Assembly: GCF_023100685.1 (NCBI RefSeq)
Contig: NZ_CP090064.1
Location: 1,922,001-1,986,000 of the forward strand
Source: Proteus vulgaris
Lineage (GTDB): Bacteria; Pseudomonadota; Gammaproteobacteria; Enterobacterales; Enterobacteriaceae
Direction: 5' to 3'
Length of the DNA: 64,000 bases
Each line of letters opens with the position of its first letter. The first letter of the stretch is position 1. Below the pieces are notes generated by a model. It searched no databases. It was not told the origin of the DNA and saw only the letters and a list, made by a program, of their open reading frames with translations. Below, in pieces: positions 4,614 through 49,288 of the stretch. The position numbers were made by a program, and so were the translations under genes.

Positions 4614-5066
4614 GGCAGTCTATTTAATGGTTGTATTGTAATGGATGAATAAGGATTAATGTCGCTATTTTTAATCAACTGTGCGAAACAGAATATGTAA
4701 ACTCATCTCTAATGGATAAGTTGCGCAACATGTTAATGATCCAGCAACATCATAAAAAACTTGTCACTATTTTGTATCAAAGGTTGGTAGACATCTTACA
4801 TTATAGTCTATCACGATTCATTTGTTCTGTTTTCTAAAGATGCCCGTAAATCAATACGCTGAAACCTTTCAACAAAATTATGTTTCGTATTATAGAGGTT
4901 AATTTCTATGAAGAAAATCGAAAAAAGGTAAATTTAAGTGATGTGATCAAAATACGGTGCTGATTGCTTGTTTTTTAAACGTTTTGTTGCGCAATAAATT
5001 TTTGCAAGCCAAATTAATTATTTTGTAGGGTAGGTAAGATGAGTAAAAATCAGAAAAAAAGAGAAA
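4614..5066. other. Long pykF upstream region
   Basis: No convincing gene is present. The region holds the Cra-like operator and the presumed pykF promoter with a long leader. The AT-rich part next to the tRNA genes has a T-rich run on the minus strand where tRNA transcription may end. Confidence 0.5.
4858..4873. promoter_or_regulatory. Candidate Cra (FruR) operator upstream of pykF
   Basis: GCTGAAACCTTTCAAC contains the dyad TGAAA-CC-TTTCA and fits the Cra operator pattern (GCTGAATCGATTCAGC-like). It lies about 245 bases upstream of the pykF start. In E. coli Cra represses pykF. Binding here is inferred from the motif. Confidence 0.6.
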
Positions 5067-5143
5067 TGGTGCGTCCAAGTGGACTCGAACCACCGACCCC
5101 CACCATGTCAAGGTGGTGCTCTAACCAACTGAGCTATGGACGC
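5067..5143 (-). tRNA. valW: tRNA-Val (GAC), copy 1
   Basis: The 77-base gene reads, on the minus strand, an acceptor stem GCGTCCA/TGGACGC, an encoded CCA end and an anticodon arm CCACC-TTGACAT-GGTGG with anticodon GAC, read as valine codons GUC/GUU. It has the TTCGAGTCC T-loop. E. coli has the same tandem pair (valV, valW) close to mdtK; which copy is called which is arbitrary here. Confidence 0.96.
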
Positions 5144-13077: not shown

Positions 13078-13656
13078 TTAAGCTAGGTTAGCTTCAACAA
13101 ATGACCAGTTAACCAGTGCCCAGAACTCTTCTAAATATTTAACGCGGGCATTACGGTAGTCGATGTAGTAAGCGTGTTCCCATACATCCACAGTTAACAG
13201 AGGTTTGTCTGCACCTGAAACTGGCGTTGCCGCATTAGAGGTGTTAACAATGGCAACTGAACCGTCAGCTTTTTTAACTAACCAAGTCCAACCAGAACCG
13301 AAGTTTTTAGCGGCTGCATCATTAAATTGCTTTTTAAACTCTTCAAAAGAGCCAAATGCTTTGTTGATAGCATCAGCAATTTTACCTGTTGGTGCGCCAC
13401 CTGCATTTGGTGCTAAACAGTTCCAGTAGAAAGTGTGGTTCCATACTTGAGCCGCGTTATTGAAGATGCCACCATCAGTAGATTTAATGATTTCTTCTAA
13501 AGATTTGCTTTCTAAATCAGTACCTTTAACCAGATTGTTTAAGTTGGTTACATAGGTTTGGTGATGTTTACCATAGTGGAATTCTAATGTTTCTTTAGAG
13601 ATATGTGGCTCAAGAGCATCTAACGCATAAGGTAATTTTGGTAATTCGAAAGACAT
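13078..13656 (-). CDS. sodB: Iron superoxide dismutase
   Basis: The 192-residue protein (E. coli 193) dismutates superoxide to oxygen and peroxide in the cytoplasm. The start is [15 protein letters not shown] after AAAGGAGTACGCA; an upstream in-frame extension is leader sequence. Metal ligands appear in [12 protein letters not shown] (His), WNHTFYWN (His) and [13 protein letters not shown] (Asp and His). The block [13 protein letters not shown] fits the Fe type. The start region contains GCAATGTC, an exact complement of the RyhB core found at 35.4 kb. In E. coli sodB is repressed by RyhB when iron is scarce and by FnrS without oxygen. Confidence 0.97.
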
Positions 13657-33580: not shown

Positions 33581-35266
33581 TTATTTTATAGCCTCTTTCT
33601 TGTGATTTTGTTCATCCACTTCTGCTTCTCGATAAACACCAGCAAAAGACGCATTACCGAAAGTACTTAATAGTAATCCTTTAATATCATAGCGATATGC
33701 TTGCATACGTAAAGAATTAGCTAAAGGCAATACAGGTAGTTCTTGAGCGAGAATATCTTGTGCTTGATGATAATAATCCATTCTTGAAGCAAGTTGCTGA
33801 CTATAAAGCGCTTTTTTTAAAATATCATCAAAACTCGGTAGGCACCAATGACTAAGGTTAGTTTGTGAACTAATAGCTGCACAACTAAAGAGAGGACGGA
33901 AAAAACTATCAGGATCGTTACTGTCTGTTGACCAGCCAGATAATGTCATATCATGAGTCCTATCCATCATACTGGTTTCTTGATATCGCCCTTCAATTGG
34001 GCGAATATTCATTTGAATGCCTACTTGAGCTAAGTCTGCCTGAATGAGCTCAGCCATTTTCAATGGGCTTGGGTTGTAAGATTGTGATGCGCTGGGTACC
34101 CAAAGGTTCAATTTAAGCCCATCAAGCCCTAGCTCTTTTAGTATTTGTTTCGATTTCTCAGGATTGTACTCTGTGATTTTTGCACGATTATCATAAGCCC
34201 AAGATGCACGAGGAAGTACCGATGCGGCTGTTTCAGCAGTACCATAATAAATCGATTCCATTAAACGTTCATTATTTATGGCATAAGCAATAGCTTGGCG
34301 AACTTTAAGATCATTGAGTGGAGGCTTACTAGTATTAAAGGCTAAATAAGCGATATTCATACCTGAGCGCAATGTTAATCTTAACCGAGGATCATCACGT
34401 AAAACTTTTAATTGGCTAGCCGCAGGATAGGCTAAAACATCACATTCGCCTGTTAATAGTTTAGATATACGGCCTGTACCTCCAGCTCCCATATCAATAA
34501 CAACTTGTTGCATTTTAGGCTGACCTTTCCAATAGTCGTTATTTCTAAATAAACGAACAAATTGTCCCGGTTGATATTCATCTAGAAAGAAAGGGCCCGT
34601 ACCTACTGGTTTCCAATCAAGTTGTGTCTGGTTGCCCGATTTCTCTAAGCTTTGTGCATATTCAGCGGAAAGAATAGGGGCGTAATGTGTTGCTAAATGC
34701 CATAAAAAAGAGGCATCAGGCTCTTTTAAACTAAATTCGACTGTGTATTGACCCAACTTTTTAACTGATTGGATATTGTCGGCAAAACTTAAGCTATCAA
34801 AATAGGGATATTTTCCACCATTGACTTGATTATAAGGATTTTGTGGGTTGATCATCCGTTCAAAACTAAAAATCACATCATCTGCTGTGAGTTTTCGTGT
34901 AGGTGTAAACCATGATGTTTGTTGAAACGAGATATTTTTACGCAAATAAAAGCGGTATGTTGCGCCATTATCTAGCGATTCCCAACGAGCGGCTATTTCA
35001 GGAATAAGACGATAAGTGTAAGGGTCAACATCTAAAAGACGATCATAAAGTTGCGCGGCAAGGGGATCGATGATTAATCCACTACTTGATAATTGTGGAT
35101 TAAAGGTATTCACACTGCCATCAACACAATAAACAAAGCCATTTTGATTAATTGGAGTTGGCTCTTGTTTTATCGATAGCGCTTGTGTTTTTGGTGCTAC
35201 ATCTGCGATACAAGTTGCACTTGTTAAGCTAACTAGCAGAGTACCAATAAGTAAAATAGGGCGCAT
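33581..35266 (-). CDS. sapA: Periplasmic peptide-binding protein SapA
   Basis: The 561-residue protein is a class-C (SBP_bac_5) solute-binding protein with the signal peptide MRPILLIGTLLVSLTSATCIA and the family signature GPFFLDEYQPGQFVRLFRN. It presents peptides to the SapBC channel; in other species it binds antimicrobial peptides and haem. Its N-terminal linker KTQALSIKQEPTPINQNG makes it slightly longer than E. coli SapA (547). The start gives the clean signal peptide; an upstream in-frame TTG start would add about 20 residues. The promoter faces the ryhB gene in the 295-base gap to pspF. Confidence 0.93.
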   Translation of the reverse strand: MRPILLIGTLLVSLTSATCIADVAPKTQALSIKQEPTPINQNGFVYCVDGSVNTFNPQLSSSGLIIDPLAAQLYDRLLDVDPYTYRLIPEIAARWESLDNGATYRFYLRKNISFQQTSWFTPTRKLTADDVIFSFERMINPQNPYNQVNGGKYPYFDSLSFADNIQSVKKLGQYTVEFSLKEPDASFLWHLATHYAPILSAEYAQSLEKSGNQTQLDWKPVGTGPFFLDEYQPGQFVRLFRNNDYWKGQPKMQQVVIDMGAGGTGRISKLLTGECDVLAYPAASQLKVLRDDPRLRLTLRSGMNIAYLAFNTSKPPLNDLKVRQAIAYAINNERLMESIYYGTAETAASVLPRASWAYDNRAKITEYNPEKSKQILKELGLDGLKLNLWVPSASQSYNPSPLKMAELIQADLAQVGIQMNIRPIEGRYQETSMMDRTHDMTLSGWSTDSNDPDSFFRPLFSCAAISSQTNLSHWCLPSFDDILKKALYSQQLASRMDYYHQAQDILAQELPVLPLANSLRMQAYRYDIKGLLLSTFGNASFAGVYREAEVDEQNHKKEAIK

Positions 35267-35381
35267 AATAATGTCTTTTAGAGAAACGATTTTGCTATTG
35301 TAACTTAAAAAACTTTCTATCCCCAAATAGTCAAAAAAACAAAGTGAGAAAAATTCTCAACAAAAAGCTTTACAAATGCTA

Positions 35382-35398
35382 ATGATAAAGATTATCAT
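35382..35398. promoter_or_regulatory. Fur box at the ryhB promoter
   Basis: ATGATAA-AGA-TTATCAT is a perfect dyad of Fur-box type, covering the -10 region (TATCAT) of the presumed ryhB promoter, whose -35 element is TTTACA at 35369. It could also affect sapA, which starts 116 bases to the left on the other strand. Confidence 0.72.
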
Positions 35399-35404
35399 CC
35401 GTAT

Positions 35405-35504
35405 TGTCCTTCAGCGGTAAGAGGTTTTCCGCAGAAGGCACGACATTGCTCACATTGCTTCCAGTATTTTTTTACTAGCCAGCTCGGGTGCTGGCTTTTT
35501 TTTT
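35405..35504 (+). ncRNA. ryhB: RyhB iron-regulatory small RNA
   Basis: I recognise RyhB by its core GCACGACATTGCTCACATTG (35438-35457) continuing CTTCCAGTATT, which is identical to E. coli RyhB as I recall it. It has a 5' stem CCTTCAGCGG / CCGCAGAAGG and a terminator AGCCAGCTCGGGTGCTGGCT followed by a T9 run. The stem sequence differs from E. coli while the pairing is kept. A Fur box overlaps the promoter. In E. coli RyhB lies at a different place (between yhhX and yhhY) and represses iron-using genes such as sodB with Hfq. Exact 5' end is inferred from the promoter spacing. Confidence 0.9.
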
Positions 35505-35560
35505 GCCTCTTTTTTAAAAACACTCCCCCTGTAAAATAAAAATGATTATTAATCATTGTG

Positions 35561-36559
35561 TTATGTTGTTGTTTGGTGCTTTTTAATCAATCCTCTAAAT
35601 TGATCGTAGCTTAATTTCAGTTTTTCAGCAGCTTCTTTTTGATTATATAAACTCTCTTTCAACGCATTGCTCACTAATATTTTTTCCATTTCATTTTGCC
35701 ATTGTCGCAAATCAAGAGGTAAATCAGGTGGTGAAAAAGACGAAATCTTTTTTTCTAATGGTGATTGTTTCGATATCGGTGTTTGCAAGCCTGCAAAAGG
35801 ATTAATAATAATATTGTCTAATTCTCTATCGCTGGTTCCGTGGCGATAAACCGAACGCTCCACAACATTTTTTAGCTCACGAATATTACCAGGCCATGAA
35901 TAGTCTAAAAGAATTTGGCATGCGTTATCACTAAAACCAGGAAAAAAAGGTAATCCCAATTCTTGGCACATTGAAATCGCGAAGTTTTCAGCAAGTAACA
36001 TAATATCAGCTCGGCGTTCCCTTAGCGGGGGTAATCGGATGACATCAAAAGCTAATCTATCCAGTAAATCCGCGCGAAATTTACCTTCTTCAGCCATTGC
36101 AGGTAAATCTGCATTTGTAGCACAGATAAGCCTAACATCCACATGCAAAGATTGACTGCCACCAACACGCTCTAAATGACCATATTCAATAACTCGTAAT
36201 AATTTTTCTTGTACAAGCATTGGTGCTGTTGCCAGTTCATCAAGAAAAAGAGAGCCACCATCAGCACGTTCAAAACGCCCTTGATGACGATTTTTAGCAC
36301 CAGTGAAAGCACCAGCTTCATGACCAAAAAGTTCAGAATCGAGCAAGTTATCATTAAGCGCAGAGCAGTTGATAGAAATAAAAGGGCCTTGCCACCAAGG
36401 CGCAAGGTAGTGTAATCGATGAGCGATTAACTCTTTACCTGTACCTCGTTCACCAATAATTAATACTGGCTTTTTTAATTGAGCAAGTGCTGATGTTTGT
36501 TCTAAAACATCAATAAATTGACTATCAACACCGATTATTGTCTCTAAATTCTCATTCAT
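35561..36559 (-). CDS. pspF: Sigma-54 enhancer-binding protein PspF
   Basis: The 332-residue protein has the AAA+ domain from residue 1 (no receiver domain), with Walker A GERGTGKE, the sigma-54 contact loop GAFTGA and Walker B GGSLFLDE. The C-terminal helix-turn-helix is ESLYNQKEAAEKLKLSYDQFRGL. It activates pspA with RNA polymerase-sigma54 and is held inactive by PspA. It is divergent from pspA, with upstream activator dyads and a sigma-54 promoter in the gap. E. coli PspF has 325 residues. Confidence 0.97.
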   Translation of the reverse strand: MNENLETIIGVDSQFIDVLEQTSALAQLKKPVLIIGERGTGKELIAHRLHYLAPWWQGPFISINCSALNDNLLDSELFGHEAGAFTGAKNRHQGRFERADGGSLFLDELATAPMLVQEKLLRVIEYGHLERVGGSQSLHVDVRLICATNADLPAMAEEGKFRADLLDRLAFDVIRLPPLRERRADIMLLAENFAISMCQELGLPFFPGFSDNACQILLDYSWPGNIRELKNVVERSVYRHGTSDRELDNIIINPFAGLQTPISKQSPLEKKISSFSPPDLPLDLRQWQNEMEKILVSNALKESLYNQKEAAEKLKLSYDQFRGLIKKHQTTT

Positions 36560-49162: not shown

Positions 49163-49288
49163 GCAGGTGAATACAACGTTGAGCGATGAACGTTGTGCTC
49201 CATAATTGTAGTTTTTCTCATATTGAGTTCTTAATACAGAATAATTGACCATTATTACACCGATGTTTATTAACATCGGTTTTTTTTT
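49163..49288 (+). ncRNA. fnrS: FnrS anaerobic small RNA
   Basis: The transcript begins GCAGGTGAATACAACGTT and forms a stem ACAACGTT / AACGTTGT with loop GAGCGATG. In E. coli the first stem pair differs by a compensating change (GC versus AU here), which supports the RNA fold. It ends with the terminator CCGATGTTTATTAACATCGG plus T9. In E. coli FnrS lies at the same place downstream of zntB and is made without oxygen under FNR, repressing sodA, sodB and others. The unpaired middle part differs from E. coli. The call is by memory of the E. coli sequence. Confidence 0.9.

Follow-up and report, generated by a model that had tools for sequence, protein, structure and literature searches.

Positions 35369-35504 of the window (the whole 64-kb stretch of Proteus vulgaris DNA that was analysed) are, judging by their sequence, a complete and genuine plus-strand gene for RyhB, a small RNA made by bacteria when iron is scarce. 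We consider it very likely (probability about 0.93) that this gene, here called copy A, is an orthologous and functional RyhB that occupies one of at least three recurring sites and would act as a standard RyhB. The observations on copy A cover its sequence, predicted structure, copy number, synteny and conservation. The locus comprises the following features:

33581..35266, minus strand: sapA (SBP_bac_5, 319 bits; E. coli K-12 sapA region 69% identical)
35345..35359, strand not assigned: second Fur-like dyad, TGAGAAAAATTCTCA, upstream of the -35
35369..35398, plus strand: sigma-70-type promoter, TTTACA-18-TATCAT
35383..35397, strand not assigned: Fur-like box TGATAAAGATTATCA over the -10 (sequence match only)
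35405..35503, plus strand: RyhB small RNA (copy A), about 99 nt, with its start inferred from the -10 and its end from the terminator
35405..35442, plus strand: 5' stem-loop (predicted fold, pair counts)
35438..35464, plus strand: conserved RyhB pairing core, GCACGACATTGCTCACATTGCTTCCAG
35477..35503, plus strand: intrinsic terminator and T-run (terminator scan)
35561..36559, minus strand: pspF (Sigma54_activat, 201 bits; E. coli K-12 pspF 69% identical)

The initial annotation had identified this RNA as RyhB, and the identification is borne out by a full-length match to RF00057 (model positions 1-67) at 35434-35503 on the plus strand, which scores 81.3 bits (E 9.6e-14) against a gathering score of 55 bits and so rules out a chance match as the origin of the RyhB call. 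The parts that it had described were also recovered. The core is, as claimed, identical to E. coli K-12 ryhB over 27 nt, with the 27-mer starting at 35438 matching exactly inside that gene; the promoter (TTTACA, TATCAT) has 10 of 12 matches and an 18-nt spacer; and the terminator consists of a stem of seven pairs at 35477-35496 followed by a T-run. The pairing drawn for the 5' stem reappears in the predicted fold of the 99-nt RNA from 35405, which is made up of the 5' stem and the terminator (-29.9 kcal/mol, z -2.48) and was equalled by 3 of 200 shuffles. Copy A thus resembles E. coli RyhB (RF00057) in its identical core, its Fur-like box over the promoter, its 5' stem and its terminator, but differs in the sequence of the 5' stem and in location, which in E. 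coli is between yhhX and yhhY. Covariation among 20 Proteus site-A sequences (19 distinct) may add thin, modest support for the 5' stem, modest because the structure was derived from the window sequence itself. In this set 96.1% of stem cells are paired and both sides have changed in 2 of 12 pairs (4 cells). For the whole structure, shuffles reached the observed values in 8/500 cases for cells paired, 1/500 for both-side-changed cells and 55/500 for both-side-changed pairs; the covariation score was reached in 17/500 and the number of further pair types in 421/500.

Copy A had been suspected to be one of several copies, and a whole-genome count with RF00057 confirmed this with four matches above the cut-off in this genome:

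1957434, plus strand: copy A, the window copy, at the pspF-sapA site
4276041: copy B, between yhhW and a yhiN-type gene
G000:C1:1537818-1537888 and 1542073-1542141, minus strand: copies C and D (locus L045), about 4.2 kb apart, with RyhB-2-like 5' ends

Across 20 Proteus genomes (this one and 19 others), A and B are present in all 20, while C and D occur together in 18, each time within a single fetched stretch and about 1 to 5 kb apart; the remaining two genomes have one of C/D each. Two records named as P. mirabilis contain four RyhB places each. The 5' part of copies C and D is of the GAATAGTTGAG type, a motif that we take to be that of RyhB-2. By this label they are likened to Salmonella RyhB-2/RfrB, with the difference that 18 of the 20 Proteus genomes carry two such copies close together. 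A survey of 149 genomes of the family at E 0.001 scored 31 candidates per genome, so that its counts are lower bounds: at least 92 genomes had a RyhB match, with at least one match in 28, two in 54, three in 8 and four in 2, counts that include sub-cut-off matches (4 such third matches among the 8 three-match genomes). Both of the four-match genomes are Proteus.

A title-level search of the open-licence literature found, among the titles listed, none on several Proteus RyhB copies, and the accessible portions of PMC4114697 and PMC3852070 contained nothing on them; PMC3521468, in the portion available, records ryhB in E. coli and P. mirabilis and as single-copy in Morganella. According to part of a review (PMC4211561), E. 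coli has a single RyhB and sibling RyhBs are found as RfrA/RfrB in Salmonella and RyhB1/RyhB2 in Yersinia. The Proteus set is like these siblings in having several copies with a common core and divergent 5' ends, but differs in number, with two copies there, as far as that part of the review describes, and four plus divergent relatives in Proteus. Copies A to D, with their common core and different 5' ends and promoters, would likely have the same main targets and may be set apart by dose, stability and minor targets. Four RyhB genes with one core could make Proteus a natural system for asking why sibling small RNAs persist (dose, timing, targets).

For Proteus, we infer Fur binding, expression, Hfq binding and targets along the lines of a standard RyhB. 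With iron present, Fur would occupy the -10 dyad, and probably the upstream dyad too, and block transcription. When iron is scarce, an RNA of about 99 nt would be made that ends at its own terminator, and its core would pair, together with Hfq, with mRNAs of iron-using proteins (sodB, sdhCDAB), so that these mRNAs are lowered and iron is spared. The window holds one candidate target:

13411..13656, minus strand: 5' part of a sodB-like superoxide dismutase gene (PF00081 at G000:C1:1935411-1935653), candidate RyhB target

Going by the E. coli N-terminus, we take this gene to be sodB rather than sodA. A stretch complementary to the RyhB core, GCAATGTC, runs across its start codon. Simple duplex energies, a crude measure, were set against 96 background starts (every ATG ORF of at least 100 aa, overlapping ones too, from the window plus two loci). 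The sodB-like start reached -15.2 kcal/mol with the core and ranked 17 of 96, so this measure does not set target pairing apart; the sdhC start reached -23.2 kcal/mol, a lower energy than any of the 96 background starts (best -22.3), with a pairing window a few bases off the start. The neighbouring genes were rejected as pairing partners, since the sapA, pspF, pspA and sapB starts gave -9.0 to -11.0 kcal/mol as against the value for the sodB-like start. Two further RNA matches were seen in the window. FnrS (listed as frnS, RF01796) matches at 49163-49284 on the plus strand with 105.7 bits, which places the FnrS and RyhB genes and the sodB-like gene at 13.6 kb, likely a shared target, within one 64-kb window. 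Rfam HPnc0260, a bacterial antisense RNA family, matches at 4972-5105 on the plus strand and overlaps an opposite-strand tRNA gene (5070-5143); this match is probably the antisense of the tRNA and not a real gene.

The dyad over the -10 had been described as a perfect Fur dyad. Its 6+6 symmetry is perfect, but its match to the consensus is imperfect, with one mismatch to TGATAATNATTATCA, the sequence that we took to be the Fur consensus for scoring. Fur-like sites with up to two mismatches number 5 in the window against 1.48 expected. The best Fur-like score before the 78 chromosomal Proteus copies is 13/14 for all 20 A copies and all 20 B copies, and for the C/D copies 13/14 in 36 and 12/14 in 2. 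The second dyad (one mismatch to TGAKAATNATTMTCA) lies between the ryhB promoter and sapA, and its position bears on a proposal of the initial annotation, that a Fur site is shared with the sapA promoter. Control by these Fur sites of the divergent sapA operon as well, which would couple iron to the Sap transporter, seems to us unlikely. Two Fur-like dyads do lie within the sapA-ryhB gap, a weak promoter-like sequence on the minus strand (AGGACA-17-TATCAT, 35410-35382, 9/12) overlaps the Fur box, and the 74 bp before sapA are as conserved in Proteus (0.974) as ryhB itself. However, promoter-like sites in the region are not in excess (2 versus 1.2, sd 1.1, in shuffles), and the symmetry of the dyad alone yields TATCAT on both strands. 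Moreover, the upstream dyad keeps its distance from ryhB. Of 41 site-A copies, 30 have the dyad exactly and 38 with at most two mismatches; in these 38 the gap to the ryhB -35 is 9 nt (36 copies) or 8 nt (2 copies). Of the remaining three, locus L051 has three mismatches, and the dyad was not found in L175 and L194. The same gap recurs in L110, which has pspF and a cobW-type gene but no sapA found within 3 kb, and in L116 and L160, for which neither gene, sapA or pspF, was found over that distance; a hemS-type gene lies near L116. Because the gap is kept and the dyad is present where sapA was not found, the upstream dyad appears to belong with ryhB, and Fur action on sapA is therefore not favoured.

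Less probable still is that transcription running on from pspF into sapA produces an antisense RNA acting as a RyhB sponge. The minus-strand genes pspF and sapA do flank the plus-strand ryhB, the sole terminator-like site in a scan of 35200-35620 is on the plus strand, with no minus-strand intrinsic terminator found there between pspF and sapA, and read-through would yield an RNA complementary to RyhB; a scan of this kind is, however, blind to Rho-dependent ends.

The location of copy A had been called unusual, and the gene was supposed to have moved. Neither view holds, as site A is occupied in 20/20 Proteus and in other genera, has been published for Erwinia amylovora, and coexists in Proteus with an occupied E. 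coli-type site. Beyond Proteus, 90 loci were picked from matches, not at random and with some genomes represented twice. Among the 88 of these with the core, SapA and PspF both lie beside RyhB in 16 and one of them does in 5 (including L185, whose PspF match, at only 46%, could be to a paralogue), YhhW lies beside RyhB in 35, and 8 have a GAATAGTTGAG-type 5' part. Table 1 of PMC4070566, a source available in part, places E. amylovora ryhB (RF00057) between pspF and sapA in the orientation > < >, and reports it as seen by RNA-seq, with Northern 'Yes', and at 2.7% and 2.1% of wild-type level in an hfq mutant. A ryhB between pspF and sapA is therefore known in print and, going by those portions of the source, its RNA is made in E. 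amylovora. The E. amylovora gene, known to us by its locus description, has the same neighbours, the same opposite orientation and the same Rfam family as copy A, but its expression and Hfq dependence were measured, whereas copy A is known from sequence; Hrs15 is another RyhB of E. amylovora (PMC4070566, in part). The sapA of the window is 98% identical to that of Proteus vulgaris PR00166, and the 11 named loci that it matched are all Proteus.

It is accordingly very improbable that copy A is a newcomer beside sapA that recently left the E. coli-type site. E. coli K-12 does have its ryhB elsewhere, in a region where yhhW adjoins yhhX, and its annotation shows no RyhB between sapA and pspF, an interval that puu genes occupy in E. 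coli. Against a recent move, the E. coli-type site is still filled in 20/20 Proteus, since copy B lies beside a YhhW 74% identical to that of E. coli and is of the E. coli type for this reason, and site A is common to other genera, including its promoter and upstream dyad, and was already in print for E. amylovora. The apparent oddity is thus corrected: the sapA-pspF site occurs in several genera but not in E. coli, the species usually taken as reference. At least three RyhB sites recur in the GTDB family Enterobacteriaceae (pspF-sapA, yhhW and RyhB-2-like), and Proteus has all three. An ancestor with the A, B and C sites is likely because of the arrangements in two other genomes. In one relative (G132), copies of types A and B are joined by a third with a D-like 5' part. 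A non-Proteus genome (G176, locus L193) has two copies 10.4 kb apart (G176:C1:1727147 and 1737562), one RyhB-2-like and the other adjoining a convergent LpxL-type acyltransferase gene; Proteus copy C likewise adjoins an LpxL-type acyltransferase gene.

That copy A is a decaying, functionless duplicate is equally improbable: the same core is present in three other copies, but copy A is retained in 20/20 Proteus with conserved promoter, core and terminator beside diverged pspF-side DNA. Conservation across the 20 Proteus is 1.0 for the -35 (six invariant columns), 0.989 for the Fur box, 0.982 for the core, 0.994 for the terminator and 0.942 for the upstream dyad, with 32 of 34 columns invariant at 35471-35504; it is 0.88 for sapA coding sequence, 0.761 for pspF coding sequence and 0.532 for the 56-bp flank on the pspF side.

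RyhB-like sequences were also seen in other settings. Two order-level relatives (L128 in G036 and L123 in G047) each have a pair of RyhB-like cores, spaced about 370 and 180 bp, in a tandem arrangement that resembles the one reported for Pseudomonas PrrF (PMC4211561, in part). A RyhB-like sequence lies near a Fiu siderophore receptor gene on a Klebsiella plasmid (L278, NZ_CP076548.1), and a conjugative Vibrio plasmid (L279, NZ_AP025513.1) has a 36-nt RyhB-like match between traD and traI.

The four-copy Proteus set and a divergent prophage-side relative are the points that we consider worth keeping, and the relative is the most novel lead. Two Proteus genomes gave a weak extra RyhB match (31.7 and 33.9 bits, below 55), and a search with the divergent RNA located it in the present genome:

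G000:C1:1763626-1763754, minus strand: divergent RyhB-family RNA (locus L202)

This RNA scores 30.1 bits against the RF00057 cut-off of 55, and it is called a relative and not a member because it falls below that cut-off though matching copy D. As a query it found matches in 16 of 20 Proteus genomes; the type is counted in 15, because the only match in G001 is that genome's own copy D (E 3.4e-5), and G016 also matches its own copy D (1.3e-4). The other Proteus loci with the divergent RNA are L198-L201, L203-L212 and L214-L217, and the viral contigs are L221-L255; matches are partial or shortened in L212, L216, L217, L218 and L220, and the core is changed in L210. In the altered core, GACATGACTTACATTGCTTC, the changes lie in the half that would pair with the sodB start and the second half is preserved, and this exact core is present in 35 IMG/VR viral contigs. 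By simple duplex energy, the altered core gives -12.6 kcal/mol with the sodB-like start, as against -15.2 for the canonical core, and -18.4 kcal/mol with the sdhC start. The exact core is found in 49 of 50 divergent loci, and all 49 have a Fur-like box of 13-14 of 14, compared with mostly 7-10 in random 65-nt windows of Proteus loci, a background that contains real sites. The divergent RNA probably derives from copy D, a descent supported by a CTCCTAGCG stretch common to the terminators of the two.

The divergent RNA lies mostly next to phage lysis genes. In Proteus phage vB_BPM-V3, a 140-aa ORF lies between the lysis genes and the antitermination gene Q. This ORF is found upstream of the RNA and on the opposite strand in 31 of the 35 viral contigs (25 of them at about 0.2 kb, the other 6 at 1.8 to 3.4 kb); L243 shows just the lysis genes, and none of six phage genes was found in L236, L242 and L246. 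In the 14 Proteus loci searched for phage genes, the ORF is present in 10, L204 has only a weak 26-residue lysozyme match, and none of the six genes was found in L203, L207 and L208. The RNA thus seems to occupy the interval between Q and the lysis genes, where phages carry cargo genes, with gene Q itself not found in the fetched stretches around it. The 140-aa ORF had no Pfam family at E 0.001. It was rejected as a target, as it gave -17.7 kcal/mol with the altered core and 7 of 96 background starts were better. Nor did a host gene start match the altered core exactly: the 12-mer GTAAGTCATGTC occurs without mismatch once in the genome, inside the RNA gene itself, and with one mismatch at seven further places in the genome. 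Complete phages carrying the RNA were likewise discarded, since the five phage records that matched did so only at query positions 1-119, upstream of the RNA.

A tentative reading, to which we give slightly less than even odds, is that Lambda-type Proteus prophages captured host copy D and keep it as Fur-controlled cargo beside the lysis genes that acts in iron starvation. The captured gene would lie back-to-back with the lysis genes under Fur control, and in an iron-starved lysogen the phage RNA could divert the host's iron-sparing response to other targets or, alternatively, compete for Hfq and mRNAs with the host's own four RyhBs. If true, a phage would take over part of the host iron response through RNA. 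The prophage small RNA svsR, described in the accessible part of PMC12803456, is different from this RyhB relative. Nine viral contigs (L256-L264) have, by comparison, a canonical RyhB core and a RyhB-2-like 5' part, and in eight of the nine no more than about 330 nt separate the core from the end of the stretch, the pattern that insertion of prophages next to the RNA gene would give.
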